Part shown: positions 16,273 through 35,054 of the stretch, piece after piece
How positions within the stretch are numbered: the stretch's first letter is position 1
How the letters are laid out: every line of letters begins with the position of its first letter
Source of the DNA: Bryobacterales bacterium
GTDB lineage: Bacteria; Acidobacteriota; Terriglobia; Bryobacterales; Bryobacteraceae
DNA: 64,000 bases
Direction: 5' to 3'
Assembly (NCBI GenBank): GCA_003164035.1
Contig: PLRS01000159.1
Span: 1-64,000 of the forward strand
The notes under the pieces: generated by a model
The model's database searches: none
Seen by the model: the letters and a program-made list of their open reading frames with translations, nothing else
Told to the model about the DNA's origin: nothing
Program-made: the position numbers and the translations under genes

Positions 16273-16842
16273 ATGGGCTACCCTCATGAATTGCTTGAGT
16301 TGGCCCAGGAAATGGCCAATCTCCACTCGGACTATGCCCACCAGGCGAGTCTTCGCAGAGCGGTTTCCACAGCGTACTATGCCCTCTTTCATCTACTAAT
16401 TTCCGAGGCCACCGCCAACTGGCAGCGACCAGAGCTTCGTACCATCCTGGGACGTGTATTCGATCATGGTCCGATGAAACAGGCGGCCGACAAGAAAGTC
16501 GCTGAACTTAACAACTATTTCAAGGAGAAGCCGCCGGAGGGGCCGGAGTGGACAACTGTGTACCATCTTCACAATGTTGCCTACACGTTTGGGCAAGCGC
16601 AGTATTACCGCACTGAAGCGGATTACAACACCGGACGAGAATGGCAACTGACCGATGTTCAGTTGCACATCGACCGCATCGTCGATGCGTTCAAGAGTTG
16701 GAGCGGCATCCGAGAAGAGCCCTCGGCTCAGGCCTATCTGGTTTCGATGCTTCCGAGCAGGGAGCGGAAACAAGACGAGAGATCGCGCCCGGAGAAGCGC
16801 CCCGCGCCGACCGAGGACCCAAAGTCGTCCTGGAACGTGTGA
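16273..16842 (+). CDS. HEPN-domain protein
   Basis: The 189-residue protein has an N-terminal four-helix HEPN-type domain with the signature RRAVSTAYYALFHLL (28-42) and a second helix block TTVYHLHNVAYTFGQAQYY. The C-terminal 40 residues are polar and Arg/Lys/Pro-rich, likely disordered. HEPN proteins act as RNases or nucleotide-handling partners in toxin-antitoxin and defence systems. The RNase-type R-x4-6-H motif is not evident here, since the Arg and His are 11 residues apart, so catalysis is doubtful. It is co-directional with its small partner gene, 3 bases downstream. Confidence 0.75.
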   Translation: MGYPHELLELAQEMANLHSDYAHQASLRRAVSTAYYALFHLLISEATANWQRPELRTILGRVFDHGPMKQAADKKVAELNNYFKEKPPEGPEWTTVYHLHNVAYTFGQAQYYRTEADYNTGREWQLTDVQLHIDRIVDAFKSWSGIREEPSAQAYLVSMLPSRERKQDERSRPEKRPAPTEDPKSSWNV

Positions 16843-16928
16843 CGGCGGTCGCCAACATGGCGCTAGTGCCGCCAGAGCCCCGCGGGAACCCTTTTCTCCG
16901 GCCGGGAGTCCAACTAACATTAGTACAG

Positions 16929-18641
16929 ATGCAGTTCTTCTCCTGGGTTGGCACCCGCTTCCGGGCCGGCGTTGTATTTTGCCTGGCGAGCACCATTGGC
17001 TTCTGCGCCGCCGCGGGCCAGCAGCCGCCAGTCATTCTGATTTCGATCGACACGCTTCGCGCCGATCACGTCGGCGCCTACGGCTATCACCGCATCTCGA
17101 CTCCTAATATCGATTCGTTCGCCGCCGGCGGAACGCTCGTCGCTAACGCCGCCTGCCAGACGCCCCTCACCCTCCCTTCTCACACGTCGCTTTTCACCTC
17201 GACCTACCCATTCCAGAGCGGCATTCAGGAGAACGCCGAGATCGTACCGTGTGGAGCCGTTACCCTGGCCGGCGTCCTGAAGGCTCGCGGTTACAGGACC
17301 GCAGGTTTCATCGGCGGCGTCTTCCTGGAACGCCAGATGGGCCTCGACCAGGGTTTCGATACCTACGACAGCCCCTTCAGTTTCGAGGCCTTTTCACCCC
17401 TTTCGGGCGAGATGTTCTTTGGCGGCGTCGCCAATCCGTACTCGGTGCGGGATCGCCGCGATGGCGTGCTGGTGGTGGGCGCGGCCCTACGCTGGCTCGC
17501 CGCCCAGCGCGGTCAACCCGTCTTCGTCTTTATTCACCTCTTCGATCTGCATACGCCCTACAGCCTGCCGGAGGAAGCCGCGCGCCGCCAGGGTATTTCG
17601 CGCTACGATGCCCAGCTTCAATACGTGGATGGGCTGATCGGCCGGTTGAAGCGCGGGCTCGCCGAGAGCGGCTGGTGGGACAAGTCGCTCGCCATTCTAT
17701 TGTCCGATCACGGCGAAGGGCTCGGCGACCACGGCGAGTCTCTCCACGGCTGTTTCCTTTACCAAAGCACGGTGCGCGTGCCGCTGGTCTTCCACTGGCC
17801 CGTGGGCTCCGCTGCTCACCCGGCCCGCATCGAACGGCCCGCCGGGTTGATCGACGTTGCGCCCACCATCCTCGATTTCGTGAACGCGCCCGCGCCGCCG
17901 TCCTTCGTTGGCGCCAGCCTGCTCGGAACCGCGCCGCACGCGGTCTACAGCGAAACCCTCTACACCCACGATTCGTTCGGTTGGGCCGCCCTTCGAAGCG
18001 TCCGCCTGGGTACACACAAATACATCGACGCGCCGCGGCCGGAACTTTACGATCTGGACAAGGACCCGGCAGAGCGCAACAACATTGCGACTGCCAATCC
18101 CGGCCAGGCGCGCGCGCTGCGTACCGAACTTACCAACCTTCTGGCCCGATATGCGCGGCCCCAGCCCACCGAGGCGGCCGCGGCCACGCCCGAATCCCGG
18201 AAGCTTCTCGCCTCTCTCGGTTATCTCGCTCCCGGGCCGCGCACGCGTGTGGCCGGCTCCGCGCCCGATCCCAAGGACCGCCTTGCCGAATACCGGCTCT
18301 ACGAGAAGTCCATGGATGCCGTCACCGGCCGCCGCTTGAACGAGGCCGTAGCGCTGCTCCTGCAAATTCTCGCCCAGGACCCGGCCAGCGCCGTGGCGCG
18401 CCGCGATCTGGGCTCCTGCTACCTCGACCTGCACGATTATGCCAAAGCCCGCGCCAGCTTCGAACAGGTGGTCATGGCCGCGCCGGACGACTATCCGTCG
18501 CAGTTCGGACTGGGCTTGGCGGACAAACACCTCGGGCTCACCGGCGAAGCCCGCACTCATTTCGAAGCGGCCTGCCGGCTTGCCCCTCGGGCGCTGCAGT
18601 GCCAACGCGAGCTGGACGCGCTGAAGCAGGGAGCGAACTGA
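16929..18641 (+). CDS. exported sulfatase-like hydrolase with C-terminal TPR
   Basis: From ATG 16929 the product is 570 residues: signal peptide (about 1-29), a sulfatase/alkaline-phosphatase superfamily domain (about 33-430), and TPR-like repeats (about 460-565). Metal-site motifs ISIDTLRADHVGAYGY and LSDHGEGLGDHGE are present. The nucleophile block reads TLPSHTSLFTS, so Thr occupies the place of the Cys/Ser that becomes formylglycine in true sulfatases (C-x-P-x-R). That points to a phosphodiesterase, phosphotransferase or other esterase rather than sulfatase chemistry. An in-frame ATG at 16857 is possible but would bury the signal peptide. It is followed after 31 bases by another hydrolase of the same superfamily. 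Confidence 0.85.
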   Translation: MQFFSWVGTRFRAGVVFCLASTIGFCAAAGQQPPVILISIDTLRADHVGAYGYHRISTPNIDSFAAGGTLVANAACQTPLTLPSHTSLFTSTYPFQSGIQENAEIVPCGAVTLAGVLKARGYRTAGFIGGVFLERQMGLDQGFDTYDSPFSFEAFSPLSGEMFFGGVANPYSVRDRRDGVLVVGAALRWLAAQRGQPVFVFIHLFDLHTPYSLPEEAARRQGISRYDAQLQYVDGLIGRLKRGLAESGWWDKSLAILLSDHGEGLGDHGESLHGCFLYQSTVRVPLVFHWPVGSAAHPARIERPAGLIDVAPTILDFVNAPAPPSFVGASLLGTAPHAVYSETLYTHDSFGWAALRSVRLGTHKYIDAPRPELYDLDKDPAERNNIATANPGQARALRTELTNLLARYARPQPTEAAAATPESRKLLASLGYLAPGPRTRVAGSAPDPKDRLAEYRLYEKSMDAVTGRRLNEAVALLLQILAQDPASAVARRDLGSCYLDLHDYAKARASFEQVVMAAPDDYPSQFGLGLADKHLGLTGEARTHFEAACRLAPRALQCQRELDALKQGAN

Positions 18642-18672: not shown

Positions 18673-20532
18673 ATGAAACCCGTGGCGGCAACGTTCCTGG
18701 TAATGTTCCTGGCTGCCTGTGGCCATTCGCCGTCCCAGGCCCACGGCAAGCGGCTGATCGTCCTCGGGGTCGACGGCATGGACCCGGGGTTTGTGGAACG
18801 CCACTGGAGCGCGCTGCCCAACCTGGCGCGCCTGCGCGATGGCGGCGGTTTCGCGCGGCTGGCTACCACTATGCCGCCGCAGAGCCCGGTAGCGTGGTCC
18901 ACTTTTATGACCGGCACCGATCCGGCCGTCCACGGGCTCTTCGATTTTGTGCACCGCGATCCCGCCACCCTGCAGCCATTTTCGTCCATGGCCGGGCTTG
19001 TGACGCCGGCGCACCAATTGGCGATCGGGCCCTACCTGCTGCCGCTTTCTTCGGCGCGCGTCCGGTCGTTCCGCACCGGCCAGCCGTTTTGGGGGCTTCT
19101 GGCCGAACACGGCATTCCCGTCACCGTGGTTCGCATACCGGTCAACTACCCGCCGGCCGCCTATGGCCACGAACTGGCCGGCATGGGAACGCCGGACCTT
19201 GAGGGCACGTTCGGCACCTTCACCTGGTACACGGACGACCCCGCCGATACCGCCGGCGATGTGTCCGGTGGACGCATTGTCCAGGTCGAGCGCGTCGGCA
19301 ACCGCGTGACCCTCCCGGTGGAGGGCCCGCCCAATACCCTCCGCCGCGACCGCCGCTCCACCAGCCTGGAAATGACCGCCGACGTCGACCTCGACCAACC
19401 CGCTGCCCGGTTCCGGATCGGCGAGTCCGTGTTCATCCTGCGCCAGGGCGAGTGGTCGCCGTGGATTCGCGTGCGGTTCCCGCTCGTCCCGCATCTGGCC
19501 GGCGTCGCGGCCATGTTCCGGCTCTACGCGCGCGAGCTCCAGCCTGGGTTTCGCCTCTACCGATCGCCGTTGAACGCGGACCCGGCCGAACCCGCGCTGC
19601 CCCTCTCCACCCCCGCCGGCTGGAGCCGCGAACTCGCCAGCCGTTTGGGCCCGTTTTACACCCAAGGGATCGAAGAGGATACTTCGGCTGTGCGGCAGGG
19701 CGCACTGACGCTGCCCGAGTACCTGGAACAGAGCCGGCTGGTTTCCGCCGGGCGGCGGGCCATGCTGCGCGATTGCCTCGACCACTTCCGGGACGGGTTC
19801 CTCTTCTTCTACTTTTCCGAAGTGGATCAGAATTCGCACTTGCTGTGGGGCCGCCACGAAGCCGAGCTGCTGGAAACCTACCAATCGGTGGATCGTGCCA
19901 TTGGCGGCGTGCTGGAACGAGCCGCCGGCGCCACCGTCATGGTGATGTCCGATCACGGTTTTGCCGCCTTCGATTACGCCGTGAATCTGAATACCTGGCT
20001 ATGGCGCGAGGGCTTCCTCGCTCTGGGCGCCGGAACCTCGCTCGCGGACGTCGATTGGGGCCGAACCAAAGCCTACGCCATGGGTTTGAACGCGCTCTAC
20101 GTCAATCTCGCCGGCCGCGAACGGCACGGCATCGTCCAGCCCGGCGCCGAGCGCGACAAGTTGGTTGCGGACCTGGTCCGGCGCCTCGGTGCCTTCCGCG
20201 ATCCGGCCACCGGCCAGGCGGTGATCGCCGATGTCTCCTCGCCCGGCAAATCCGCCAGCCGCTTCGCTCCCGACCTGATCGTGGGTTACGCACCGCCCTA
20301 CCGCGCGTCCTGGGAAACGGCCATGGGCGGCGTGCCAGGCACCGTCATCGAACCGAACCGGGACGCCTGGATTGGCGACCACTGCATGGCGGCCGCTTCG
20401 GTTCCCGGGGTGTTGCTCGGCACCAGAAGGCCGCGCCTTACCGACCCCGGCCTGAAAGACCTGCCCGTGACCATCCTGAAAGAGTTCGGCATCGCGCCGC
20501 CCCCGCCGATGACCGGCCGGGCCATCTATTGA
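18673..20532 (+). CDS. alkaline phosphatase superfamily (phosphodiesterase-like) lipoprotein
   Basis: This 619-residue protein has a lipoprotein signal (lipobox LAAC, Cys 16). The body shows the type I phosphodiesterase/nucleotide pyrophosphatase layout: metal-site LIVLGVDGMDPGFVE, a nucleophile region MPPQSPVAWSTFMTG with Ser in place, and metal-site blocks YFSEVDQNSHLLWG and VMSDHGFAAFDYAV. It probably hydrolyses a phosphate or phosphonate ester in the periplasm; the natural substrate is unknown. It is the second gene of a two-gene operon with the sulfatase-like protein. Confidence 0.85.
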   Translation: MKPVAATFLVMFLAACGHSPSQAHGKRLIVLGVDGMDPGFVERHWSALPNLARLRDGGGFARLATTMPPQSPVAWSTFMTGTDPAVHGLFDFVHRDPATLQPFSSMAGLVTPAHQLAIGPYLLPLSSARVRSFRTGQPFWGLLAEHGIPVTVVRIPVNYPPAAYGHELAGMGTPDLEGTFGTFTWYTDDPADTAGDVSGGRIVQVERVGNRVTLPVEGPPNTLRRDRRSTSLEMTADVDLDQPAARFRIGESVFILRQGEWSPWIRVRFPLVPHLAGVAAMFRLYARELQPGFRLYRSPLNADPAEPALPLSTPAGWSRELASRLGPFYTQGIEEDTSAVRQGALTLPEYLEQSRLVSAGRRAMLRDCLDHFRDGFLFFYFSEVDQNSHLLWGRHEAELLETYQSVDRAIGGVLERAAGATVMVMSDHGFAAFDYAVNLNTWLWREGFLALGAGTSLADVDWGRTKAYAMGLNALYVNLAGRERHGIVQPGAERDKLVADLVRRLGAFRDPATGQAVIADVSSPGKSASRFAPDLIVGYAPPYRASWETAMGGVPGTVIEPNRDAWIGDHCMAAASVPGVLLGTRRPRLTDPGLKDLPVTILKEFGIAPPPPMTGRAIY

Positions 20533-20535
20533 GGT

Positions 20536-22932
20536 TCAACCCATTACCACTTCCACCCGGTGAACGCTTCCGGCGGGCTGCGGAGGAATCGGGCCTGTCC
20601 ACAAGTCGCCATTAAAGGTGACGCTCCTGACGCCCTTTTCCACCCCGTTCGGATTGGTCACCGTGATCCGGAACGTCGCGCCGCGCCATTGGCGGGTTAC
20701 CTGGAACTGTTTCCACGCGGCGGGGATGCAGGGGTCGATTTCGAGCCCATGGAAGCTCAGGCGGATACCGAGGATCCAGCGCGTGGCGGCGGTGTAGTTC
20801 CAACCCGCGCTGCCGGTCAGCCAGGGATGGCGGGCGCGGCCATAGGCGGTGTGGTCGCGGCCCATCACGAACTGGCAATACGAATACGGCTCGGCTTCGC
20901 GGATTTCGATCCGCTCGTTCTGGTTCGAGGGCAGCAGGGAATCGTAGAACTTCAGGGCTTGGGAGCCGCGGCCCAGCTTGCATTCGGCGATCACGGCCCA
21001 GGGATTGGGATGGCTGAAGATGGCGCCGTTTTCTTTGATGCCTTTATAGACCCGGGCCACGAAGCCGATATCGTCGTTAGGCTTCGAGAACGCCGGCCAC
21101 AAAAGATGGATGCCGTAGGAAGAGTAAAGATACCGGTCCACGGCGTCCATGGCGGAGCGGGCGCGTTCCTCCGATGCGGCGCCGGAGACCACGGCCCAAG
21201 TGTTGCTCTCGATGAAGATCTTGCCTTCGTCGCTGGCGCGCGTGCCGATCCTGACGCCCTTGGCGGTGATGCCGCGGATGTACCACTCGCCATCCCAAAG
21301 TTGGCTCTCGCAGGCGGTTCGCACCTTTTCCGCAAGCAGGCTGTAGGTGTGCGCATCTTCGTGGCGGCCGAGATATTCGGAGGCCTCGACGAACGCACCC
21401 AGAGCCCAGTGATGCAGGAAGGAAACCATGGCGCTTTCGCCGCCGCCGAGATTCAGGCAGTCGTTCCAGTCCGCGCGCAGACCTTTGCAAATGCCGGTTG
21501 CGCCGACCTCGCGGGCGGAAAAGTCCAGGGCGCGCTTGAGGTGGTCGTATACGGTGGCCTGGCCCGCGTCGGCGAACGGAACCTCCTCATCGAAAAGCGC
21601 CACATCGCCAGTCTCTTTCACATATTCGCAAACGGAAGGCACCAGCCACAGCGCGTCGTCGGAGCAGACGTCGGCCAGGCCGTGGATCAGGCTCTTGCGG
21701 TCGGGCGTGGGCGTGACGGTAGGGGATTTGAATTTGGGCGCGGTCTGTTTTTCGGGGTCGAACCAATCGGGGTCGAAAAGGTGAAGGCCGTAGCCCTGGC
21801 TCACCTGGCCTTGCAACAGTTCGACGATGCGCTGCCGGCACTTGGCGGGATTGGTGTGAACTACGCTCATCACGTCCTGGGAAGTGTCGCGATAGCCCAG
21901 GCCGGTGCGCCCGCCGACTTCGATGAAGGATGCGAAGCGCGACCAGACCACGCAGGTTTCCGCCTGGTAGAAAGTCCAGGTGTTGACCATGGTGTCGAGG
22001 CCGGAGTGGGGCGTCTGGCATTGGAAGATGTCGAGCTTCGCCTGCCAGTACCGGCGGAGGGCGTCGAAAGCATGGTCGACGTTGGCGGGAACGGAGTATT
22101 TCGCTCGGATCTCGCGGCCCTTTGAGCGCGGGCCGACGCCGAGCAGGAACAGCAGGCGCGCCTCTTCGCCGGGGGCGAGCAAGAGGCGCTTGTGGAGCGC
22201 ACCGCAGTGATTGCCACCCAGCTCCGTGCTGTTGCGGCACTCGCCCCGCTCCACAGCGATGGGGTTGTTTTCAGTGCGGTAAGGGCCTAGAAAACTGTCG
22301 CGAACCGAGTCGAAGCTATCGGGATCGAAGCTGGCGGTGAAGTAGTGGAAAGTCCAAGGCTCGTAGAAAAAGTCGTATTCAATGACGCTGTCGTCGAAGC
22401 TGGAGCCCGCGGCGTAGAGGCTCATCTGGAGGTTCTGGTTGTCGATTTCGACGTGGTGGAAGGAAAACTCCAGGTAGCCGAAGACGCTGAGACTGCGCGG
22501 CGTCGAGCCGGTATTGCGGGTTCGCAAGTCCCACAGTTCCACGTCGTCGCCGAGCGGGATGAAGACGGTCTGCTCGGCAGCGATGTCCCGGTAGTCGCAG
22601 GAGAATCTCGAGTAGGAGAGGCCGTGGCGGCATTCGTATTTGGCCTGCGCCAGATCCTTGCCGACGGGCTGCCAGGAAACCGACCAGTATTCGCCGGTCT
22701 GGTCGTCGCGAAGGTAGACGTAGTGGCCGGGGCGGTCGAGCGGAACGCCGTTGGGACGGAAACGGGTGACGCGCTGGTGCTCGGCATGCTTGTAGAACGA
22801 ATAGCCGCCGGCGTTCTGGGAGAGAACCGTGCACAGGTTCTCGACGCCGATGTAGTTGGTCCAGGAAACCGGGACGTCGGGACGTTCAACCACGTATTCG
22901 CGGGCGGTATTGTCGAAATGGCCGTAGCGCAT
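20536..22932 (-). CDS. chbP: GH94 phosphorylase, N,N'-diacetylchitobiose phosphorylase-like
   Basis: The 798-residue cytoplasmic enzyme matches the length (about 800) and landmark blocks I recall for Vibrio chitobiose phosphorylase: MRYGHFDNTAREYVVERPDV, TNYIGVENLCTVLSQNAGGY, RPGHYVYLRDD, ETCVVWSRFASFIEVGGRTG, GYGLHLFDPDWFDPEK and the catalytic-Asp block GLRADWNDCLNLGGGE (485-499). The reaction is reversible phosphorolysis of (GlcNAc)2 to GlcNAc-1-phosphate and GlcNAc. Other GH94 specificities (cellobiose, cellodextrin) have different N-terminal blocks. It is the last gene of an operon with a sugar-phosphate mutase fusion (gap 9 bases) and an AmpG-like permease. Confidence 0.88.
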   Translation of the reverse strand: MRYGHFDNTAREYVVERPDVPVSWTNYIGVENLCTVLSQNAGGYSFYKHAEHQRVTRFRPNGVPLDRPGHYVYLRDDQTGEYWSVSWQPVGKDLAQAKYECRHGLSYSRFSCDYRDIAAEQTVFIPLGDDVELWDLRTRNTGSTPRSLSVFGYLEFSFHHVEIDNQNLQMSLYAAGSSFDDSVIEYDFFYEPWTFHYFTASFDPDSFDSVRDSFLGPYRTENNPIAVERGECRNSTELGGNHCGALHKRLLLAPGEEARLLFLLGVGPRSKGREIRAKYSVPANVDHAFDALRRYWQAKLDIFQCQTPHSGLDTMVNTWTFYQAETCVVWSRFASFIEVGGRTGLGYRDTSQDVMSVVHTNPAKCRQRIVELLQGQVSQGYGLHLFDPDWFDPEKQTAPKFKSPTVTPTPDRKSLIHGLADVCSDDALWLVPSVCEYVKETGDVALFDEEVPFADAGQATVYDHLKRALDFSAREVGATGICKGLRADWNDCLNLGGGESAMVSFLHHWALGAFVEASEYLGRHEDAHTYSLLAEKVRTACESQLWDGEWYIRGITAKGVRIGTRASDEGKIFIESNTWAVVSGAASEERARSAMDAVDRYLYSSYGIHLLWPAFSKPNDDIGFVARVYKGIKENGAIFSHPNPWAVIAECKLGRGSQALKFYDSLLPSNQNERIEIREAEPYSYCQFVMGRDHTAYGRARHPWLTGSAGWNYTAATRWILGIRLSFHGLEIDPCIPAAWKQFQVTRQWRGATFRITVTNPNGVEKGVRSVTFNGDLWTGPIPPQPAGSVHRVEVVMG

Positions 22933-22941
22933 GGGGATTTC

Positions 22942-25098
22942 TCAGGCCTTCACGAACTGGCGCAGCCACCCGAGCAGTTCGGCGGCTTTTTCGGGGGAAT
23001 CGGCTTCCACCGCCAGGCGCAGGACGGGTTCGGTGCCGGAGAAGCGGAGCAGCGCCCAGTTGTCGTTTTCCAGGTACAGCTTGGTGCCGTCGGCGTGCGA
23101 GATCTTCAGAACCGGGTAAGAGGCGATGCGGTCGCTGGGAGCTTCACGCAATCGCCGCGGAATGGCCACGCGCATCTCGGGCGTAGCCGGAATGCTCTCT
23201 TCCGCCTGGTAGAGACGGCCGGTAAGGGCATAGACGCGCTCGAGAAGCTGGGAAATCTTCTGGCCGGTTTTGGCCAGCATTTCCACCACCAGGGCGCAGG
23301 CGAAAATGCCGTCTTTGCCCAGGATGTGGCCGCGAATGGTGAGGCCGCCGGAGGATTCGCCGCCCAGCACGGCATCGTGCCCGACCATGGCCGCGACGAT
23401 GTGTTTGAAGCCCACCGGCACTTCGTAGCACTCCTCGCCCAGGCGGTGGGCGAGGCGATCCAGCAGGTGCGTGGTGGCCAGGTTGCGGACCACGCCGCCG
23501 CGGCTGCCGCGCACCTCGTGCAGATACCAATAAAGGAGCAGAAGGAGGTCGTCGACCGAGACATACTCGCCGCGTTCGTCCACGATCGCGATGCGGTCGG
23601 CGTCGCCATCCATGGCCAGCCCCAGGTCGTAACCGTCGTCGCGCATGGTGGAGCTAAGCAGCCGGAGCGCTTCGGGATTGGGCGCCGGTGAGCGGCCGCC
23701 GAACAAGGGGTTGTGGCGCTCGTGGATAAAGGTCACGCGGCAGCGGGCTTCGGTCAGGACCGTGCCTAGAGTGAGCTGGCCGACGCCGTACATGGGGTCG
23801 ACGATAACTTTCAGTTCGGCGTTGCGAATGGCTTCCAGATCGATGAGAGCTTCGACGGCGTCGACGTATTCGTTGGTGAAATCGCCGCGCTCGACGATGC
23901 CCGCGTCGAGCGCCAGGTCGAGTTCCAGTTTGATCACCCGCTCCGGAGCGAGTGCGTTGGTTTCGGCCTCGATCTGGCGGGTTTCGTGGTCGAGCAGCAG
24001 CGAGCCATCGCCGTGAAAGACCTTCAGCCCGTTCCACTCCGGCGGGTTATGGCTGGCGGTGAAGGCCAGCCCGTAGGCCGAGCCGCGGCGGGCGGTGGCG
24101 TAGGTGATCAGTGGGGTGGGCGCGGGCTCGGTTAAAAGGACCGAAGCGATGTTGTTGCCGGCGAAAACCTCGACGGCGGCTTCGGCGGCTTGCCGGGAAA
24201 GGAAGCGGCGGTCATAGCCGACGATCACGCCGCGCTTCTCCTGGCCCTGGCGCGTGATTTCATTGGCCAGCGCCTGGCAGAGGCGGCGGACGTTGTGCAT
24301 GGTGAAGCCTTCACCGATGATGGCGCGCCAGCCGCCGGTGCCGAAGGTTACCAGGTTTTGCTCCTCCTGGCGGCGCGGGCGATAGAGTCGCTTCTGCAGG
24401 ATGAATTCGGCCCGTGCCAGGTCCTCGGCGTTGTTGATGCCCTGCACTTCGTCGGGGTCGTAGATCTGGTAGCTTTCGACGCGCAATCCGGAGCGGATGA
24501 GCTCATGAACGCAGTCGGTGAAGCGGAATTCGCCGTCGACGGGGGACGGGGAAAGCCGGGCCAGGGCGGCCGAGATCATGCCCGAATCGACCACGTAGGC
24601 GCCCACGTTCAGCTCGCGAATGGCGCGCACCTGGGGCGTGGCCTCGGTATCTTCAATGATATCGATGATGCTCCCGGCGGCGTCGCGGATGATGCGGCCA
24701 TAGGGCAGCGGCCGATCGACTACCGCGGTGAGCAGCGTGGCGTGAGCTTTCCGCAAGGTATGGCGATTGAGCAGGCCGCGAATCGAGCCGGGGCGGAACA
24801 GGGGTGTGTCTCCGTAGAGGATGAGCAGATCGCCATGGAAGCCGGCGAGGAGCGAAACGGCATGGCGGACGGCATCCCCGGTGCCGAGCGGGTTTTCCTG
24901 AACGACGTAGCGATAGCGCTCGCCAAGGTGCGCGCGCACGTCGTCGTTATGGCTTCCGACGACGATGTAGATGTCCTCCGGCGGGACGTTTTCGAGGGCA
25001 TTCAGGATGACGCACTCGAGGATGCTCCGCTCGCCGAGCGGTTGGAGCAGGATGGAATCTCCGGCGGCCAGGACGATTGCTTTCAGGGTTTCAGACAC
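22942..25098 (-). CDS. GlmU-like nucleotidyltransferase / phosphohexomutase fusion
   Basis: The 718-residue protein joins a GlmU-like nucleotidyltransferase (1-245) to a phosphohexomutase (about 248-718). The mutase half is complete: phosphoserine loop TASHNP (347-352), metal site DGDADR (497-502), sugar-specificity loop GESSGG (580-585) and phosphate-binding RFSGTEP (685-691). The N-terminal half keeps LAAG (9-12), ENPLGTGDAVRHA, LYGDTPL (94-100) and ELNVG, but the GxGTRM-x-PK signature after LAAG is replaced by DSILLQPLGERS, lacking the UTP-contacting Lys. Next to chbP it would convert GlcNAc-1-P to GlcNAc-6-P and possibly UDP-GlcNAc. It overlaps the permease gene by 8 bases. Confidence 0.85.
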   Translation of the reverse strand: MSETLKAIVLAAGDSILLQPLGERSILECVILNALENVPPEDIYIVVGSHNDDVRAHLGERYRYVVQENPLGTGDAVRHAVSLLAGFHGDLLILYGDTPLFRPGSIRGLLNRHTLRKAHATLLTAVVDRPLPYGRIIRDAAGSIIDIIEDTEATPQVRAIRELNVGAYVVDSGMISAALARLSPSPVDGEFRFTDCVHELIRSGLRVESYQIYDPDEVQGINNAEDLARAEFILQKRLYRPRRQEEQNLVTFGTGGWRAIIGEGFTMHNVRRLCQALANEITRQGQEKRGVIVGYDRRFLSRQAAEAAVEVFAGNNIASVLLTEPAPTPLITYATARRGSAYGLAFTASHNPPEWNGLKVFHGDGSLLLDHETRQIEAETNALAPERVIKLELDLALDAGIVERGDFTNEYVDAVEALIDLEAIRNAELKVIVDPMYGVGQLTLGTVLTEARCRVTFIHERHNPLFGGRSPAPNPEALRLLSSTMRDDGYDLGLAMDGDADRIAIVDERGEYVSVDDLLLLLYWYLHEVRGSRGGVVRNLATTHLLDRLAHRLGEECYEVPVGFKHIVAAMVGHDAVLGGESSGGLTIRGHILGKDGIFACALVVEMLAKTGQKISQLLERVYALTGRLYQAEESIPATPEMRVAIPRRLREAPSDRIASYPVLKISHADGTKLYLENDNWALLRFSGTEPVLRLAVEADSPEKAAELLGWLRQFVKA

Positions 25099-26398
25099 GG
25101 GCGGGTTGTGCCTCCGAATCCGGCGCGGCTTGGGTCGCGCGCCGTCCTATGGGGATAAAGCGGGATAGAATAAGAGCGGGCACCGAGGAAATCAGAACCC
25201 ATACGAAGAATTTTCGATAGCCGATCGCCATTTGGATTTTACCGCTTACCGCTCCCGGAATCATGAGTCCCAGGTTCATCAGCGAATTGGCGAACGCGTA
25301 GTGGGCCGTCTGGTAATTGCCGGGTGCGATTTCCTGCATCATGAGGAGCATGACGCCGACAAAGCCAAAGCCATAGCCAAACATTTCGACACTCATCGCC
25401 GACGCCACCAACACCGGATTGGTGGGCAACGCCGCGCTCAGGTAGACGTAGGCCAAGTTGGGGAAGTTCATGGCACAGATCAGCGGCAGCAGGGCGCGCC
25501 GCAGACCGAGCCACGATGTGAAATATCCGCCCAGGACCGTGCCCGCCAGAAACGCCAGCGTGCCGAAAGTGCCGTAAATAGTGCCGAACTGGTCCATGGA
25601 AAGACCGAGGCCGCCGACGGAGCGTTTATCCACCAGGAAGAGCGGCCCGATAGTGACCACCTGGCCCTCCCCGGCACGGTAGAGCAGGATGAACAGCAAC
25701 AGCCAATAGATATTCGGCTTGCGGAAAAAGCTGACGAGCACGTCCCGGAAAGTAGCGGCGATTTGGCGAAGGCTGCCGGAATGGCGGGCCGCGCCTCCGC
25801 TGGGCAGAACGCGGCCGTGATACACGCTGAGTGCCACCAGAATCAGCCCCATGCTGGCGAAAATGACCATCCACGCGTGGGGCACATCCATGCGTGCTTC
25901 CAGGTACCCGGCCAGGACGATCAGGCCGCCTTGGGAGAACAGGCGCGCCACGCTGTAAAAGCCGCTCTGCCATCCGGCGTAGGCGGCCTGCTCCTTGCTG
26001 CGTAGGCTGGCGATGTAGAGGCCGTCGGCGGCGATGTCGTGAGTGGAGGAACAGAAGGCCACCACCGCGAACAGGCCGATCGTGTATAGGAAATATCCGG
26101 GCAGGGGCAGGCAGAGAGCGATCAGGCCGAGGCTGATGCCGCCCACGAACTGCAGCAGGACCACGAAATACTTCTTGGTCTTGAACATCTCGAGCAGCGG
26201 GCTCCACAGCGGCTTCAGCGACCAGGGAAGCAACAGCAGTTTGGTGTAGAGCGCGATGACGTCGTTGCCTAAGCCAAGCCGTTTGTATAGGATGCCGGCG
26301 ATTAAGGAGACGGCGAAAAAGGGAACTCCTTCCGCGAAATAGAGCGTCGGCACCCATGCGTAGGGAGGAGTGCGGCGGGGATTTTCCGGTTCGGTCAT
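25091..26398 (-). CDS. AmpG-like MFS transporter
   Basis: This 435-residue membrane protein has 12 predicted membrane segments and the AmpG/SLC33-type N-terminus WVPTLYFAEGVPFFAV, the block SSTHDIAADGLYI and FGYGFGFVGVMLLMMQEIAPG. AmpG imports GlcNAc-anhydroMurNAc muropeptides; relatives import other amino-sugar oligomers. As first gene of an operon with chitobiose phosphorylase, it is a reasonable importer of chitobiose or a related disaccharide. The ATG at 26398 is about 440 bases from the divergent TonB receptor gene, and the inverted repeats at 26438 and 26622 lie between. Confidence 0.87.
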   Translation of the reverse strand: MTEPENPRRTPPYAWVPTLYFAEGVPFFAVSLIAGILYKRLGLGNDVIALYTKLLLLPWSLKPLWSPLLEMFKTKKYFVVLLQFVGGISLGLIALCLPLPGYFLYTIGLFAVVAFCSSTHDIAADGLYIASLRSKEQAAYAGWQSGFYSVARLFSQGGLIVLAGYLEARMDVPHAWMVIFASMGLILVALSVYHGRVLPSGGAARHSGSLRQIAATFRDVLVSFFRKPNIYWLLLFILLYRAGEGQVVTIGPLFLVDKRSVGGLGLSMDQFGTIYGTFGTLAFLAGTVLGGYFTSWLGLRRALLPLICAMNFPNLAYVYLSAALPTNPVLVASAMSVEMFGYGFGFVGVMLLMMQEIAPGNYQTAHYAFANSLMNLGLMIPGAVSGKIQMAIGYRKFFVWVLISSVPALILSRFIPIGRRATQAAPDSEAQPARV

Positions 26399-26840: not shown

Positions 26841-29800
26841 GTGAAACTTCGAACGCTGTTACACAGTTGTAGAACGGTGGCTCTGGCCGGTGCGGTCTGC
26901 GCCCTGGCGGTCTCCGCATGGGGCCAACAGGTCACCGCGGCATTCACTGGCCAAGTCACCGACCCTTCGGGTGCCCCCGTGCCGGGAGCCCAAGTTACGG
27001 CTACCGATACGGATCGCGGAACCAAGTGGCCCACCAGCACCAACCAGGACGGTGAGTATAACCTTCCCCGCGTGCCGATAGGCACCTACGACGTGAAGGT
27101 GGAACACGAGGGCTTCCAGAAAGCCGTGGAGTCCCACGTTTCGCTGCAAATGAACCAGGTGGCCCGTCTGGATTTTCGACTCCAGGTTGGCAGCCTGTCG
27201 CAAACCGTGGAAGTCGCCGCTACCGAAGCGGTGCTCCAGACCCAGTCGACGCAACTGGGGCAAGTGATCGACGCCCGCACCAACGAGGACCTGCCTCTCG
27301 CATCGCGAAATTACGTACAATTGACCCTGCTCGCCGCGGGCAGCATCCATCCCGATCCATCCAGCTTCCAAGGACAGACCACCGCCAGCAGCGGACGCCC
27401 GAACGTGAACGGGAACCGCGAACAGGCCAACAACTTCATACTCGACGGTCTGGACAACAACCAGGTTTCCGATAACCTGGTCGGTTACGCGCCCAGCGTG
27501 GACGCCATCCAGGAATTCAACGAAATCACCAACAACGCGCCCGCCGAGTTCGGCAATTTCATGGGTGCCATCGTCAGCGCCACCATCAAGTCCGGCACCA
27601 ACAAGTTCCACGGCAGCGCCTTCGAGTTTTTCCGCAACGACCAGTTGAACGCCAACACGTGGTCGAACAACTTCGAGGGCGCCCAGCGTTCGGCAATCCG
27701 CTGGAATAATTTCGGCGCAACCCTGGGTGGGCCGATCAAGAAGGACAAGCTGTTCTTCTTCGTCGACTACCAGGGGTCGCGCGACGATACACCGACCAGC
27801 GTCTCCACCACCACGGTGTTCACCGCGGCCGAGCGCAACGGCGACTTTTCCCAGCTCCTGCCGACGACAGTGCTCTATAACCCCTTTTCGTCGTCCACCG
27901 CCGCCAACCGCGCTGTATTTCCCGGGAATATCGTTCCCACGTCGTTGCTTAGCCCCATCGCTTTGGCGATCGTGACATCGAAATACTATCCGGCGCCCAC
28001 CAACGGCAACCTGCTGAACAATTTTCAGTACGGCGCGAACAGCACCAACAACACCGACCAGGGCGACGCCAAGGTCGACTATAACATCTCCGAAAAGGAC
28101 CGCTTTTTCGCGCGCTACTCCCAAAGCCGGTTCGACAACCCCAACGACAATACTTTTCCGCTGAAGTACAACAGTTTCTCGACCGACCCCACCCACACCG
28201 GCGTGATGGATTGGACCCACACCTTCAGCCCGTCGCTGGTCAACGAAGCGCGCGCGGGCGTCAATTACGTTTTCGTGAACAACGGCGCCGCCGCCAACGG
28301 GCTTGCGAACTTCGGTCAGACCGTCGGTATCCCGGGCGTGCCGTCGGCCTTTCTCCCCTCCATTAATTTCAACGGACCGACCAATGCGGCCAGCTTCGGC
28401 ACCGCCGACAACTATGAACTGTTCGCCGACGCGGTCATTCACCTGGAAGACACGATCATCCTGACCAAGGGCGCGCACACGATGCACATTGGTTTCCAGG
28501 CGTACCGTTATCGCATGGATACGTTTTACTCCGGAAACAACGGCGAGGCCGGCACCATCCTGTTCAACGGCCAATATACGGCCGGGCCGGTCCCGGGAAC
28601 CAAAGCGGGCAACGGCAGCGGCACCTCCGAAGCCGACTTCCTGCTGGGCCTTCCCGACGAAATTCAGGGCGGCGTCAACGGCGGTACCTGGGGCCAGCGC
28701 TCGAATTCCCTGGCCGCGTTCTTCCAGGACGACTGGCGCGTCACTCCCAAGCTGACCCTCAACCTAGGGCTCCGCTGGGAATTGCATACGCCGTGGGACG
28801 AAGTCAAGAATCGCCAGGCGAATTTCAACCTCCTCACCGGCCAGGAGTACACCTCCGGACAGAGTTGCCCCTATAACAACTGCAACGCCCTCTACAACCA
28901 ATACAATGGCATTACCAACTTCCAGCCGCGCATTGGCTTCGCCTGGACTCCCGGCAGCGGCAAATTCGTGGTCCGCGCGGGTTATACCCTCTCGAACTAC
29001 CTGGAGGGAACCGGAACCAACCTGCGCCTGCCCATCAACCCGCCCTTTGCGGTGGAGCACGACGACCAATACACCGGAGCCGCGTACAATAATCTTCCCG
29101 GCTCGACGCTCGCCAATGGCTTCCTCCCCTTCACCAGCAATGCCGGGAACCAGTTCGCCAATGTTACCCTGCGCGTTTGGGATCCGAATATCCGTCCGGC
29201 GGTTTCCAATCAATGGAACCTTACGCTGCAGCAGCAAGTCACTTCGAGTATGACCGTCTCCGCAAGCTACGTGGGACAGCGCGCCACCCACCTGATGGTG
29301 CCCATGCCCTATTTCCAGAAAGTGTTGAACGCCAGCAACGATACCGTGTCGCCTACCGAATATCTGGCGGGTAACCCGACGTTGCAGTCTGAGATCGGGC
29401 AGATCTCCGGCACGGCTTCGATTGGCAACCAGGCCTACGACGCGCTGCAGTTTTCCCTGCAGAAGCGCCTGACCTCCGGCCTGCAATTCGTGCTCAACTA
29501 CACCTACTCCAAGTGCATGACGAACAATCTGGGCTACTACGGCCAGGGCGGACAGTCCGGTCAAAGCAATTGGTACTATCAGGACATCTACGATGCCAAG
29601 GCCGAATGGGGGCCATGCGACTATGACGCCACCCATAACTTTGTCACCAATGTCGTCTACGACCTCCCGTTTGGCCGCAATCGCATGTTCGGCAAGAATA
29701 TGAACAAAGGCCTCGACGCGGTTGTGGGCGGCTGGGAAGTGGGCGGTATCCTGAGCCTGCACACCGGCTTCCCGCTCACCGTCACCGGCAGCGACGCTTC

Positions 29801-30170
29801 CAATACCGGTTCCCGCGGCGCCCGGGCGGATTGCATCGCTCCCCCGGACGTCTTCGGCAAACAGAACTCGCCCTCGGGAGGCTATCAATGGTTCAATCCG
29901 GCCTCCTACACGCAAGCCGCCGCCTACACTTTCGGCAGTTGCGGCGTAGGCACTGTTCGCGGACCGGGCCTGGACGACTTCGATCTCAGTCTGTCGAAGA
30001 CCTTCAGCGTCACCGAACGGCACGGGTTCGATCTCCGCGCCGAATTCATTAACATGACGAATACGCCTATCTTGAATTCCCCGAATCACGGCATTGGGCC
30101 CACCCTCGGGCTGCTCAACAGCTCGCAGGGAGCACGCAACGTACAAATCGCAGTGAAGTACCACTTCTGA
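26841..30170 (+). CDS. TonB-dependent receptor, Oar-like with carboxypeptidase-regulatory domain
   Basis: The 1109-residue outer-membrane protein starts at GTG 26841 with AGGAGA 8 bases upstream. It has a signal peptide (about 1-29), a carboxypeptidase-regulatory-like beta sandwich (about 32-110, TGQVTDPSGAPVPGAQV), a plug domain (about 115-230, LASRNYVQLTLLAAG, ILDGLDNNQVSDN), and a 22-strand barrel with KFHGSAFEFFRND and a C-terminal aromatic VKYHF. Such receptors take up carbohydrate oligomers in Acidobacteriota. Its position opposite the chitobiose operon across shared inverted repeats suggests uptake of chitin- or peptidoglycan-derived oligomers, an inference from context. Confidence 0.93.
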   Translation: MKLRTLLHSCRTVALAGAVCALAVSAWGQQVTAAFTGQVTDPSGAPVPGAQVTATDTDRGTKWPTSTNQDGEYNLPRVPIGTYDVKVEHEGFQKAVESHVSLQMNQVARLDFRLQVGSLSQTVEVAATEAVLQTQSTQLGQVIDARTNEDLPLASRNYVQLTLLAAGSIHPDPSSFQGQTTASSGRPNVNGNREQANNFILDGLDNNQVSDNLVGYAPSVDAIQEFNEITNNAPAEFGNFMGAIVSATIKSGTNKFHGSAFEFFRNDQLNANTWSNNFEGAQRSAIRWNNFGATLGGPIKKDKLFFFVDYQGSRDDTPTSVSTTTVFTAAERNGDFSQLLPTTVLYNPFSSSTAANRAVFPGNIVPTSLLSPIALAIVTSKYYPAPTNGNLLNNFQYGANSTNNTDQGDAKVDYNISEKDRFFARYSQSRFDNPNDNTFPLKYNSFSTDPTHTGVMDWTHTFSPSLVNEARAGVNYVFVNNGAAANGLANFGQTVGIPGVPSAFLPSINFNGPTNAASFGTADNYELFADAVIHLEDTIILTKGAHTMHIGFQAYRYRMDTFYSGNNGEAGTILFNGQYTAGPVPGTKAGNGSGTSEADFLLGLPDEIQGGVNGGTWGQRSNSLAAFFQDDWRVTPKLTLNLGLRWELHTPWDEVKNRQANFNLLTGQEYTSGQSCPYNNCNALYNQYNGITNFQPRIGFAWTPGSGKFVVRAGYTLSNYLEGTGTNLRLPINPPFAVEHDDQYTGAAYNNLPGSTLANGFLPFTSNAGNQFANVTLRVWDPNIRPAVSNQWNLTLQQQVTSSMTVSASYVGQRATHLMVPMPYFQKVLNASNDTVSPTEYLAGNPTLQSEIGQISGTASIGNQAYDALQFSLQKRLTSGLQFVLNYTYSKCMTNNLGYYGQGGQSGQSNWYYQDIYDAKAEWGPCDYDATHNFVTNVVYDLPFGRNRMFGKNMNKGLDAVVGGWEVGGILSLHTGFPLTVTGSDASNTGSRGARADCIAPPDVFGKQNSPSGGYQWFNPASYTQAAAYTFGSCGVGTVRGPGLDDFDLSLSKTFSVTERHGFDLRAEFINMTNTPILNSPNHGIGPTLGLLNSSQGARNVQIAVKYHF

Positions 30171-33443: not shown

Positions 33444-35054
33444 TTACCCCTTGAAGAACAGGCTGAGGATGGCGTTCGCCGGCAGGTGCAGCGTCAATGC
33501 CGCCCGCCCCCGTTGCACCGCCATATCGAAACCCTCGCCGCCGCCGTTGATCAGCACTGCTACCACGCTGCCATCGGGATTGCGAAATGCCGCGTTGAAC
33601 GTATCGAGCCGGGTCAGCGGATTCGAGCCGATGCGCCGGGCGCCGCGCCGGATCAGGGGGCTGAAGGTCCGGTACCCGCAATACGCCGCGGTAAGGTGCG
33701 CGGCAGGCGGATTCTCGCCCTGCGGTACCACCATGATGCGCGGCATCTTCTCGTAATCGGTCCGCGCCGGTCCTTTCTCGCGCGGGATGCCGAGGTATTG
33801 GTCCGGGCCGCCCCATTCGTCGGTGACGGTCGTCCAACTGATGTAACCGGTGGCGCCATTTGCCAGTACGTCCATCAGGCGCCCGAGGTCGCGGATCCGG
33901 CCGTATGCCCGCTCGCTGAGAACCGCCGGCACGTCCGGATGCTGCCGCCCCAGCAGCGCCATTTCCTCCGGCCTGCCCCGATAATCGTGAAAGGCTACCA
34001 TGTGGGTAATCCGTTTCACCCGCGGGTCGTCGAGCAGCGGCTTGGCGAAGCTCTGCGCCATGTCGAAGTTGTGATCCATCACCCAGAGTTTCGTGGTCAT
34101 CCGGTTGGCCGCCAGGCGCTTGCCCACCGCCAGAAGTACGTCGCGTTCCTGCTCCCAGGTCCACATCGCCGCCGGGGTGGCGCGGTCGCCGCCCGTCGCC
34201 GGCTCGTTCTGAACCGTCAGGTATTGAATCGGGATGCCCAGCGCCGCGTACGCCTGAACGCTCTTCACCAGGTAGTCGGCGTAGACTTCGGTGAACTCCG
34301 AGTTGAAGAAGCCGTGCATGATCTGCTGGTTACTGGTCATCCAGGCCGGCACGCCCCAGACCGAGGCCAGTATGTGCAGCTCGGGATTTACCGAGCGGAA
34401 CTCGCGGACCACGTCTATGATGCCTCGGTCGATGTCTTTCTGCACGCTGAAGTGCGCCAGCGTCGGATCGGTTTCGCCCCGGGGGACATCGCAGTAGGTG
34501 TAGAAGTTGAAATCCCGGTTCCAATCCGTGCTGCCGAATCCGATGCGCATCAGGTTGAATCCCAGGCCATCCCTGCCGGCCAGCGCGGCGATGGCGGCGT
34601 GGCGCTTCTCCGGCGTCAGCCGCAGCAGGTTCCACACGTCGCTGTCGATGATGGTGCCGCCAAAGCCCAGCATTTCCTGAAACGTCGTGTCCGTGTCCAG
34701 GTTGAGGATTTCGGCAATCTCGCACTCCGGGTTCCGCGGCGCCAGTTCCCGCCCGGTCGGGCGTTGGCATCGCGCGTCGCCCTCGACCGCCAGGCGAGCC
34801 TCCACCGCGTCCCAGGACAGGCGTTGAGCCGGCAACTGGCTCAGTTCCTTCTTACGGGGATTCATAACCTGTCCGCTCGGCCCCGCCACCGGGCAGGCGT
34901 CGGAGCCGTTCGCGGCCGGCGCCCTGGCGGGAACCGTCTGACTGAAAGCGGCGTCAGGACCGCTGCCTGTCAACAGCAGTCCACCCAGGCCGGCCGAGGT
35001 TCCCGCAAGGAAGCTGCGCCGCTTCATCGAGCGATTGGTACTCTGCGCTGCCAT
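33444..35054 (-). CDS. GH30-family glycoside hydrolase (Tat-exported)
   Basis: The 536-residue enzyme has a Tat signal (KRRSFLAGTSAGLGGLLL) and a GH30 TIM barrel with QEMLGFGGTIIDSDVWNLL, LMRIGFGSTDW, acid/base VQNEPATGGD (E284) and nucleophile VLSERAYG (E381), then a beta domain at the C-terminus. Family members include glucosylceramidases, xylanases, beta-1,6-glucanases and fucosidases; the subfamily is not certain. A GGGAGA site 6 bases before ATG 35054 supports this start. It is transcribed away from the GntR gene, with about 470 bases between the two start codons. Confidence 0.88.
   Translation of the reverse strand: MAAQSTNRSMKRRSFLAGTSAGLGGLLLTGSGPDAAFSQTVPARAPAANGSDACPVAGPSGQVMNPRKKELSQLPAQRLSWDAVEARLAVEGDARCQRPTGRELAPRNPECEIAEILNLDTDTTFQEMLGFGGTIIDSDVWNLLRLTPEKRHAAIAALAGRDGLGFNLMRIGFGSTDWNRDFNFYTYCDVPRGETDPTLAHFSVQKDIDRGIIDVVREFRSVNPELHILASVWGVPAWMTSNQQIMHGFFNSEFTEVYADYLVKSVQAYAALGIPIQYLTVQNEPATGGDRATPAAMWTWEQERDVLLAVGKRLAANRMTTKLWVMDHNFDMAQSFAKPLLDDPRVKRITHMVAFHDYRGRPEEMALLGRQHPDVPAVLSERAYGRIRDLGRLMDVLANGATGYISWTTVTDEWGGPDQYLGIPREKGPARTDYEKMPRIMVVPQGENPPAAHLTAAYCGYRTFSPLIRRGARRIGSNPLTRLDTFNAAFRNPDGSVVAVLINGGGEGFDMAVQRGRAALTLHLPANAILSLFFKG

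Follow-up and report, generated by a model that had tools for sequence, protein, structure and literature searches.

Phosphorolytic degradation of N,N'-diacetylchitobiose, i.e., the disaccharide (GlcNAc)2 of N-acetylglucosamine (GlcNAc), is a known pathway. The Vibrio (GlcNAc)2 operon encodes a mutase, VC0611, and a phosphorylase, VC0612 (PMC5209532). Genes for a chitobiose phosphorylase (ChBP) and an acetylglucosamine-1-phosphate mutase have already been reported from an acidobacterial genome, that of Acidobacterium strain SBC82; the passage on this strain mentions no fusion, no permease and no pseudo-domain (PMC6252331). Regulation by proteins which bind nucleotide sugars has also been described. 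GMPPA, which is catalytically inactive, binds guanosine diphosphate-mannose (GDP-mannose) and inhibits GMPPB (PMC11228364). GlmR from Bacillus subtilis binds uridine diphosphate-GlcNAc (UDP-GlcNAc) and is thought to feed back on GlmS (PMC13046274). Here we analyse a locus which appears to join these two themes. It lies in a stretch of 64,000 nucleotides, the window, i.e., positions 1-64,000 of contig PLRS01000159.1 from Bryobacterales bacterium GCA_003164035.1 (own genome, 8.0 Mb). Three open reading frames (ORFs) on the minus strand code for a permease of the major facilitator superfamily (MFS), a fusion of a nucleotidyltransferase with a phosphohexomutase, and a glycoside hydrolase family 94 (GH94) protein (Table 1). 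As a whole, they probably form a chitobiose catabolic operon in which the mutase carries a predicted pseudo-uridylyltransferase as a possible sensor domain.

A first reading of this DNA from its letters alone, the original prediction, had described three overlapping or nearly touching genes opposite an Oar-like receptor. The ORFs are indeed found in this arrangement. The fusion gene has a GTG start and an 8-base overlap with the MFS gene; a gap of 9 bases separates it from the GH94 gene, and the Oar-like gene is on the plus strand. Pfam returned the same domain assignments for all three proteins, and so did NCBIfam for the permease and the fusion; for the GH94 protein NCBIfam has no match. The gene order recurs in relatives and thus is not due to chance. 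In the literature searched by title or start of abstract, with subscription journals mostly outside the search, we found no description of the fusion or of a GlmU-like sensor, nor of an AmpG-like chitobiose permease.

The predicted chitobiose phosphorylase

The GH94 protein matches the Pfam catalytic domain PF17167 (587.8 bits, E=1.4e-176) and the supersandwich domain PF06165 (259.1 bits, E=5.4e-77). The closest solved structure is the ChBP from V. proteolyticus (VpChBP, 1v7v), matched end to end over residues 1-798 with 1185.6 bits; next are 8bou (548.7 bits) and the cellobiose phosphorylase 3qde (519.5 bits). Sequence identity is 60.9% with VpChBP (796 columns), 38.1% with BpGH94MLG and 36.3% with the cellobiose phosphorylase CtCBP; cellodextrin, laminaribiose and 4zle enzymes were compared by score only. 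8BOU was rejected as a chitobiose reference. Although the PDB names it N,N'-diacetylchitobiose phosphorylase, it is identified as BpGH94MLG in the accompanying paper, which describes a phosphorylase of mixed-linkage glucan and cellotriose that has no activity on cellobiose (PMC10318527).

Related loci were collected with a three-member alignment scan and two peptide patterns from 84,980 species genomes; of 148 relatives the best 80 were kept (loci carry L and genomes G numbers). VpChBP is without both search patterns, and Vibrio-type loci are therefore under-sampled among the 80. When aligned with VpChBP (1v7v/1v7w/1v7x) the window protein is identical at 18/18 printed positions, including Val631 and Asp492, and no sequence difference of note is seen. 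The number 492 is assumed by us to be that of the general acid of VpChBP; it aligns with Asp491 of the window protein. In BpGH94MLG the expected general acid is Asp515, which is conserved with ChBP, and a Tyr of the cellobiose and cellodextrin enzymes, which is Val631 in ChBP, is crucial to specificity (PMC10318527). Val628 of the window protein aligns with Val631. A Val occupies this position also in 80/80 related loci; CtCBP, BpGH94MLG and the second GH94 enzyme of the own genome have Tyr.

Of the 80 loci, 28 entered the GH94 tree of 37 rows, together with a single phosphorylase each for cellobiose and for mixed-linkage glucan and two more GH94 paralogues. Branches with 100/100 support set the window protein, its related loci and VpChBP apart from the cellobiose pair on the one hand and from the mixed-linkage enzyme with its neighbour from genome G036 on the other. 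The rows of 8bou, L066 and CtCBP are flagged as long, that of 8bou being uncertain, and VpChBP stands among Bacillota rows with 88-89% bootstrap. The tree, which covers the comparison with the cellobiose/cellodextrin clade in part because cellodextrin enzymes enter by score only, thus groups the window protein with VpChBP, and together with identity and Val628 this bears out the original naming of an N,N'-diacetylchitobiose phosphorylase. Specificity is strongly supported by sequence, and the enzyme very probably acts on (GlcNAc)2.

The second GH94 of the own genome (G000:C6) has the reverse pattern with 1151.6 bits to the cellobiose phosphorylase 3qde and 513.9 bits to 1v7v. The adjoining ORF of 649 amino acids (aa), L065 9529-11478 (-), reads by eye like a sodium/solute symporter. 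The relative G036 has another GH94, L066 (G036:C88), which is 42.7% identical to the window enzyme and groups with 8BOU on long branches.

A GlmU-like domain without its catalytic loop

Pfam identifies NTP_transferase and PGM_PMM I-IV in the fusion protein. The model of the whole fusion has a predicted local distance difference test (pLDDT) value of 85.4. A Foldseek search with it gave phosphohexomutase-family structures only among the 50 listed of 1571 matches, and for this reason the N-terminal part was modelled alone (AlphaFold 2, pLDDT 91.4). The best match of this model is the UDP-GlcNAc-bound GlmU 1g97 with a template modelling (TM) score of 0.92; next is the apo-form 1g95 with 0.88.

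The alignments use E. coli GlmU as a reference, 20 fusions, i.e., the window and 19 loci from three phyla, and as controls 20 acidobacterial GlmU proteins, which were taken from the match list and come from 20 of 61 genomes. L157, the open frame of which is over-long, was left out of the alignments and kept in the fusion counts. The loop residues G16, R18, M19 and K25 (E. coli numbering) are kept in 0/20 fusions and in 20/20 GlmU controls; T17 persists in 3/20 and S21 in 1/20 fusions, both being present in 20/20 controls. Further, the loop is shorter by 8 columns in the window fusion and by 5 in L149.

A different picture emerges for the pocket. L11, G14, Q76, G81, T82, Y103, D105, Y139, G140, E154, N169, T199 and N227 are kept in 20/20 fusions, and Q76, G81, T82, D105, G140, E154, N169 and N227 are found in 20/20 GlmU controls as well. 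At 38/224 positions all fusions have the residue of E. coli GlmU, and 13/13 pocket positions are among these (hypergeometric p 1.3e-11, a flattering value because the positions were picked with the alignment in view). In the numbering of the window protein, D97, E149, N164 and N222 belong to the pocket. D105 and N227 are taken by us to be the metal residues of GlmU, and roles in the pocket are likewise assumed for Y103, Y139, N169 and T199. The equivalents of L11, G14, Q76, G81, T82, D105, G140, E154 and N227 line the uridine/sugar site of GlmU from M. tuberculosis, as seen from the contacts made there by uridine or product in bound form or by docked compounds (PMC9105790).

Thus, the N-terminal domain shares the fold and the UDP-GlcNAc/metal pocket residues with the uridylyltransferase of GlmU, yet it has neither the GxGTRMxS...K loop nor an acetyltransferase half and is fused to a mutase. 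The fusion named in the original prediction stands with respect to its domain make-up (Pfam, NCBIfam); that the nucleotidyltransferase half is without the catalytic loop had escaped notice there. We are highly confident in predicting a pseudoenzyme here, a GlmU-type fold which has lost the loop and cannot make UDP-GlcNAc. This argues against a direct step from GlcNAc-1-phosphate (GlcNAc-1-P) to UDP-GlcNAc in the fusion.

The phosphohexomutase and its relatives

The mutase motifs TASHNPP, DGDADR, GGESSGG and RFSGTEP are all intact. The curated GlmM models remain under their cut-offs for the fusion (Arch_GlmM, 312.1 vs 439; glmM, 176.6 vs 447.55). For comparison, an even sample of 398 Pseudomonadota genomes was searched with the GH94 protein. 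Ten gave matches at E<=1e-150, one of them being the Rhizomicrobium fusion genome that served as centre. In the other nine loci (9/9) a solo mutase of 470-485 aa is located beside ChBP, 43-45% identical to the mutase half of the window, with no match to the N-terminal half of the fusion. These loci are labelled Vibrio-type by gene order. In L230, the one locus whose neighbours were checked by Pfam, ChBP is part of a row of genes that also codes for GH9, a BadF-family protein, GH20 and the mutase. The Vibrio (GlcNAc)2 operon and the window share a ChBP which adjoins a phosphohexomutase of the same family, and the same chemistry is proposed for both; the window differs by its AmpG-like MFS permease and the fused GlmU-like domain.

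The mutase tree was calculated from the window, L097, 13/19 fusion loci, nine solo mutases and 5 of 8 outgroup rows tried; it carries a long-branch warning. The 24 ChBP-linked rows form a 100/100 clade apart from the 5 other acidobacterial mutases. Within it, the fusions and L097 are one clade (99/100), apart from the solo mutases of Bacillota and Vibrio-type loci (100/99).

The fusion is present in 19/80 loci (Acidobacteriota 7, Chloroflexota 8, Alphaproteobacteria 4), a mutase without the extra domain in 9/80, i.e., 7 Bacillota, L097 and the fragment L102 at a contig edge. Rhizomicrobium electricum DSM 21034 carries the same operon (L168). The flanks of the 80 loci often end at contig ends; L098 and L063, which are one locus, were counted once. 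Searches started from the fusion in overlapping sets of 61, 396, 400 and 385 genomes yielded full-length fusions in G000, G036, G455, G1247 (the L112 locus), G1042 (the L157 locus), G983 and G454. Of these, 6/7 are beside GH94, or 3/4 when the starting points G000, G454 and G455 are set aside. The G983 fusion is not beside GH94 at its own locus, the rest of G983 not having been searched for ChBP. Distant fusions may be missed because the 396-, 400- and 385-genome searches used strict cut-offs.

The surroundings agree with a chitin-related role. GH18 cluster members occur in the flanks of 32/80 loci, and genes for GH18, GH20, an amidohydrolase, glucosamine-6-phosphate isomerase, SIS or a 783-aa family in those of 46/80; one representative of each neighbour cluster was checked, the amidohydrolase is NagA-like by reading, and the 783-aa family has no Pfam match. 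GH18 directly follows ChBP in L100, L103 and L176 and has the same place in G036 (by reading and clustering). Among ten neighbour genes that were checked, GH18 was found three times and GH3, an amidohydrolase and an Oar-like protein once each; the other four were unrelated (AAA ATPase, HlyD, AcrB) or, in one case, without match.

The 783-aa family stands beside ChBP in 8 loci, e.g., L160 11523-13874 (+), and its start reads by eye like a glucosamine-6-phosphate deaminase. L096 (OY725836.1), labelled plasmid 2 of Subdoligranulum variabile in a record without annotation, has ChBP, a solo mutase and, nearby, genes resembling those of ATP-binding cassette (ABC) transporters.

The permease and the proposed mechanism

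With the curated AmpG-family model TIGR00901 the permease scores 137.6 bits at a cut-off of 350, and it is therefore called AmpG-like, not AmpG. The original assignment as AmpG-like permease is upheld by MFS_1 and by AmpG as the nearest curated family; it does not extend to AmpG proper. An AmpG-like MFS permease is encoded in 47/80 loci, an ABC permease in 9/80, both in 0/80 and neither in 24/80 (Fisher p=1.7e-4, the loci not being independent; for each of the two ABC permease families one representative was confirmed). A search of the own genome returned no second AmpG-like permease.

We propose that the AmpG-like permease would carry (GlcNAc)2 across the inner membrane, and that the GH94 enzyme would cleave it with phosphate to GlcNAc-1-P and GlcNAc. 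The mutase half would then convert GlcNAc-1-P to GlcNAc-6-phosphate (GlcNAc-6-P) for the NagA route. Import by the permease, a part of the original prediction, is supported by context, and we consider it reasonably likely. The subsequent conversion of GlcNAc-1-P, also foreseen there, is backed by Vibrio-type and Bacillota loci, where ChBP likewise has a mutase of this family as a neighbour, and is a probable function of the mutase half.

GlmU uses GlcNAc-1-P as its substrate, and a mutase which drains this compound could therefore benefit from a brake. The pseudo-GlmU domain would sense UDP-GlcNAc (or GlcNAc-1-P) and adjust the mutase; when UDP-GlcNAc is low GlcNAc-1-P would be spared for the cell wall, and when it is high GlcNAc-1-P would be burned, the direction being a guess. 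For such sensing and adjustment the balance of probabilities is even. The proposed working principle is that of GMPPA, in which a nucleotidyltransferase fold is no longer catalytic, binds the nucleotide sugar formed as product, and exerts control over an enzyme. GMPPA, however, is a separate eukaryotic protein which acts on a pyrophosphorylase (PMC11228364), whereas the domain presented here is bacterial, GlmU-type, fused to a catabolic mutase, and only presumed to regulate. We tentatively suggest that across Acidobacteriota, Chloroflexota and Alphaproteobacteria the pseudo-GlmU domain is a UDP-GlcNAc sensor built into the mutase of chitobiose operons, a fused prokaryotic counterpart of GMPPA which would direct GlcNAc-1-P either into the cell wall or into glycolysis.

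Points against and alternative readings

Several observations weigh against this account. The substrate of the mutase and the cargo of the permease are deduced from context. No mutase of the same family is seen in the stretch read of 52/80 ChBP loci, many contigs being short; G015 has a ChBP without a fusion beside it, and no match of that genome to the fusion is better than E=2.9e-42. A divergent Chloroflexota fusion, L243 7059-9242 (+), in which the loop is also lost, is not beside GH94. In the own genome the best NagA match (216.5 bits) is just under the cut-off of 225.65, and GH18 is represented by a single partial match of 56.7 bits. With respect to the ligand, the UDP-GlcNAc-bound E. coli structure 1fwy (0.84, 0.85) ranks under the unbound 1fxj (0.87), and the bound M. 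tuberculosis structures 3d8v (0.91) and 3dj4 (0.88) bracket the ligand-free 3d98 (0.89). The structure matches do not rank by ligand, and so the model indicates a GlmU fold and nothing firm on a ligand. Most of the remaining points concern the domain itself, and they lead to the first alternative.

In the same operon, the GlmU-like domain could have no ligand-dependent role at all and persist as a passive relic, or serve for structure or oligomerisation. L097, a near relative, has a mutase without the N-terminal domain. It is sister to the window (97/93) and nested among the fusions, and thus has lost the domain cleanly, which indicates that it is dispensable. Bacillota and Vibrio-type mutases, as far as read, do not have it either, and the shortened loops of the window and L149 fit a relic. 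In the N-terminal half, ratios of nonsynonymous to synonymous substitutions (dN/dS, NG86, ten pairs, some near saturation) range from 0.04 to 0.28; those of the mutase half range from 0.02 to 0.13. The N-terminal value is the higher one in 9/10 pairs. Its two maxima belong to pairs of the window, 0.26 against L098 and 0.28 against L149 (mutase half, 0.11 and 0.13), and the third window pair, with L099, has 0.13. Accordingly, purifying selection acts on the domain overall but seems weaker in the window lineage, in which the domain may be decaying. Nevertheless, dN/dS goes down to 0.04, and in the 20 fusions, which span three phyla, none of the 13 pocket positions varies or departs from the E. 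coli residue, even if the p value is flattering. A domain that served as a scaffold alone could do without this pocket. A domain without a ligand-dependent role is thus rather unlikely.

Peptidoglycan recycling would require that the permease imports GlcNAc-anhydroMurNAc and that the GH94 enzyme phosphorolyses it. AmpG is the nearest curated family not only of this permease but also of the two homologues examined, and no other permease-like protein of its kind was found in the own genome. However, the permease is below the AmpG cut-off, ABC permeases replace it in other ChBP loci, and chitinases are neighbours. Further, a GH94 match (E<=0.001) exists in 15/61 genomes including the own, with at least 78% identity in 3/61, which is unlike a housekeeping route. 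We consider recycling improbable.

The GlmU-like domain might still be an active uridylyltransferase with another mechanism, the fusion then converting GlcNAc-1-P to UDP-GlcNAc as well as to GlcNAc-6-P. This would be a sensible use of GlcNAc-1-P, and the presumed metal residues D105 and N227 and the sugar/uridine pocket are intact in 20/20 fusions. K25 of the E. coli enzyme is taken to correspond to K26 of M. tuberculosis GlmU. The exchange K26A alone left the latter without uridyltransferase activity (PMC4619583). With G16, R18, M19 and K25 absent from all fusions and the loop kept in all controls, and with a full-loop GlmU (L178) in the own genome, a live uridylyltransferase was judged very improbable.

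Finally, phosphorolysis of cellobiose or cellodextrin with a phosphoglucomutase, conceivable because GH94 includes such enzymes and the sugar loop GGESSGG also occurs outside GlcNAc enzymes, is virtually excluded for the operon by scores, identity, Val628 and tree, and by the cellobiose-type GH94 which the own genome already has.

Genomic setting

Relatives of the Oar-like protein are located beside the operon in L097 and L149, divergently as in the window, and in L098 (42.7-43.4% identity); one other Oar-like protein of the own genome is 25.8% identical to it. Oar-like proteins are numerous in Acidobacteriota, and this neighbour is therefore modest support. BadF-family proteins are present in the own genome. 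Near the operon, Pfam identifies a sulfatase with TPR repeats at 16641-18641 (+), a type I phosphodiesterase-family protein at 18673-20532 (+) and a GH30 enzyme at 33444-35054 (-). Scans of promoters (1 vs 1.3 in shuffles) and terminators (7 vs 6.1) showed no excess, and a scan for tandem repeats found none.

Table 1. Features of the operon and of two related loci; positions refer to the window unless a locus is named.
Feature	Position	Strand	Basis
AmpG-like MFS permease, predicted chitobiose importer, 435 aa	25091..26398	-	Pfam MFS_1, NCBIfam
Predicted pseudo-uridylyltransferase + alpha-D-phosphohexomutase fusion, 718 aa	22942..25098	-	Pfam, NCBIfam, whole-protein model
GlmU-like N-terminal domain without catalytic loop, residues 1-245	24364..25098	-	alignment, model
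Site of 8 missing GlmU-loop alignment columns, between residues 15 and 16 of the fusion	25051..25056	-	alignment
Phosphohexomutase part, residues 246-718, predicted GlcNAc-1-P/GlcNAc-6-P mutase	22945..24363	-	Pfam, motifs
GH94 chitobiose (N,N'-diacetylchitobiose) phosphorylase, 798 aa	20536..22932	-	Pfam, identity to VpChBP, tree
Codon of Asp491 of GH94 (= VpChBP Asp492, presumed general acid)	21460..21462	-	alignment
Codon of Val628 of GH94 (= VpChBP Val631)	21049..21051	-	alignment; role PMC10318527
Oar-like outer-membrane protein, divergently encoded; may take part in uptake across the outer membrane	26841..30170	+	Pfam PF25183 + CarboxypepD_reg
L097 mutase without GlmU-like domain; overlap with permease gene kept	L097 7526-8992	+	alignment, tree
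Second GH94 of own genome, cellobiose-phosphorylase type	L065 7074-9515	-	score, Tyr

Implications

The GlcNAc-1-P released by phosphorolysis of chitobiose can be burned as a fuel, and it is also the compound from which UDP-GlcNAc is made directly. The AmpG-like protein is a candidate inner-membrane chitobiose permease for loci in which no ABC importer is seen. The GlmU-like domain is a candidate bacterial pseudoenzyme regulator for which nature provides controls, i.e., the domain-less forms of L097 and the Vibrio-type mutases. If the proposal is true, a branch-point mutase with a nucleotide-sugar pocket that is dead with respect to chemistry would constitute a simple switch between eating and building.

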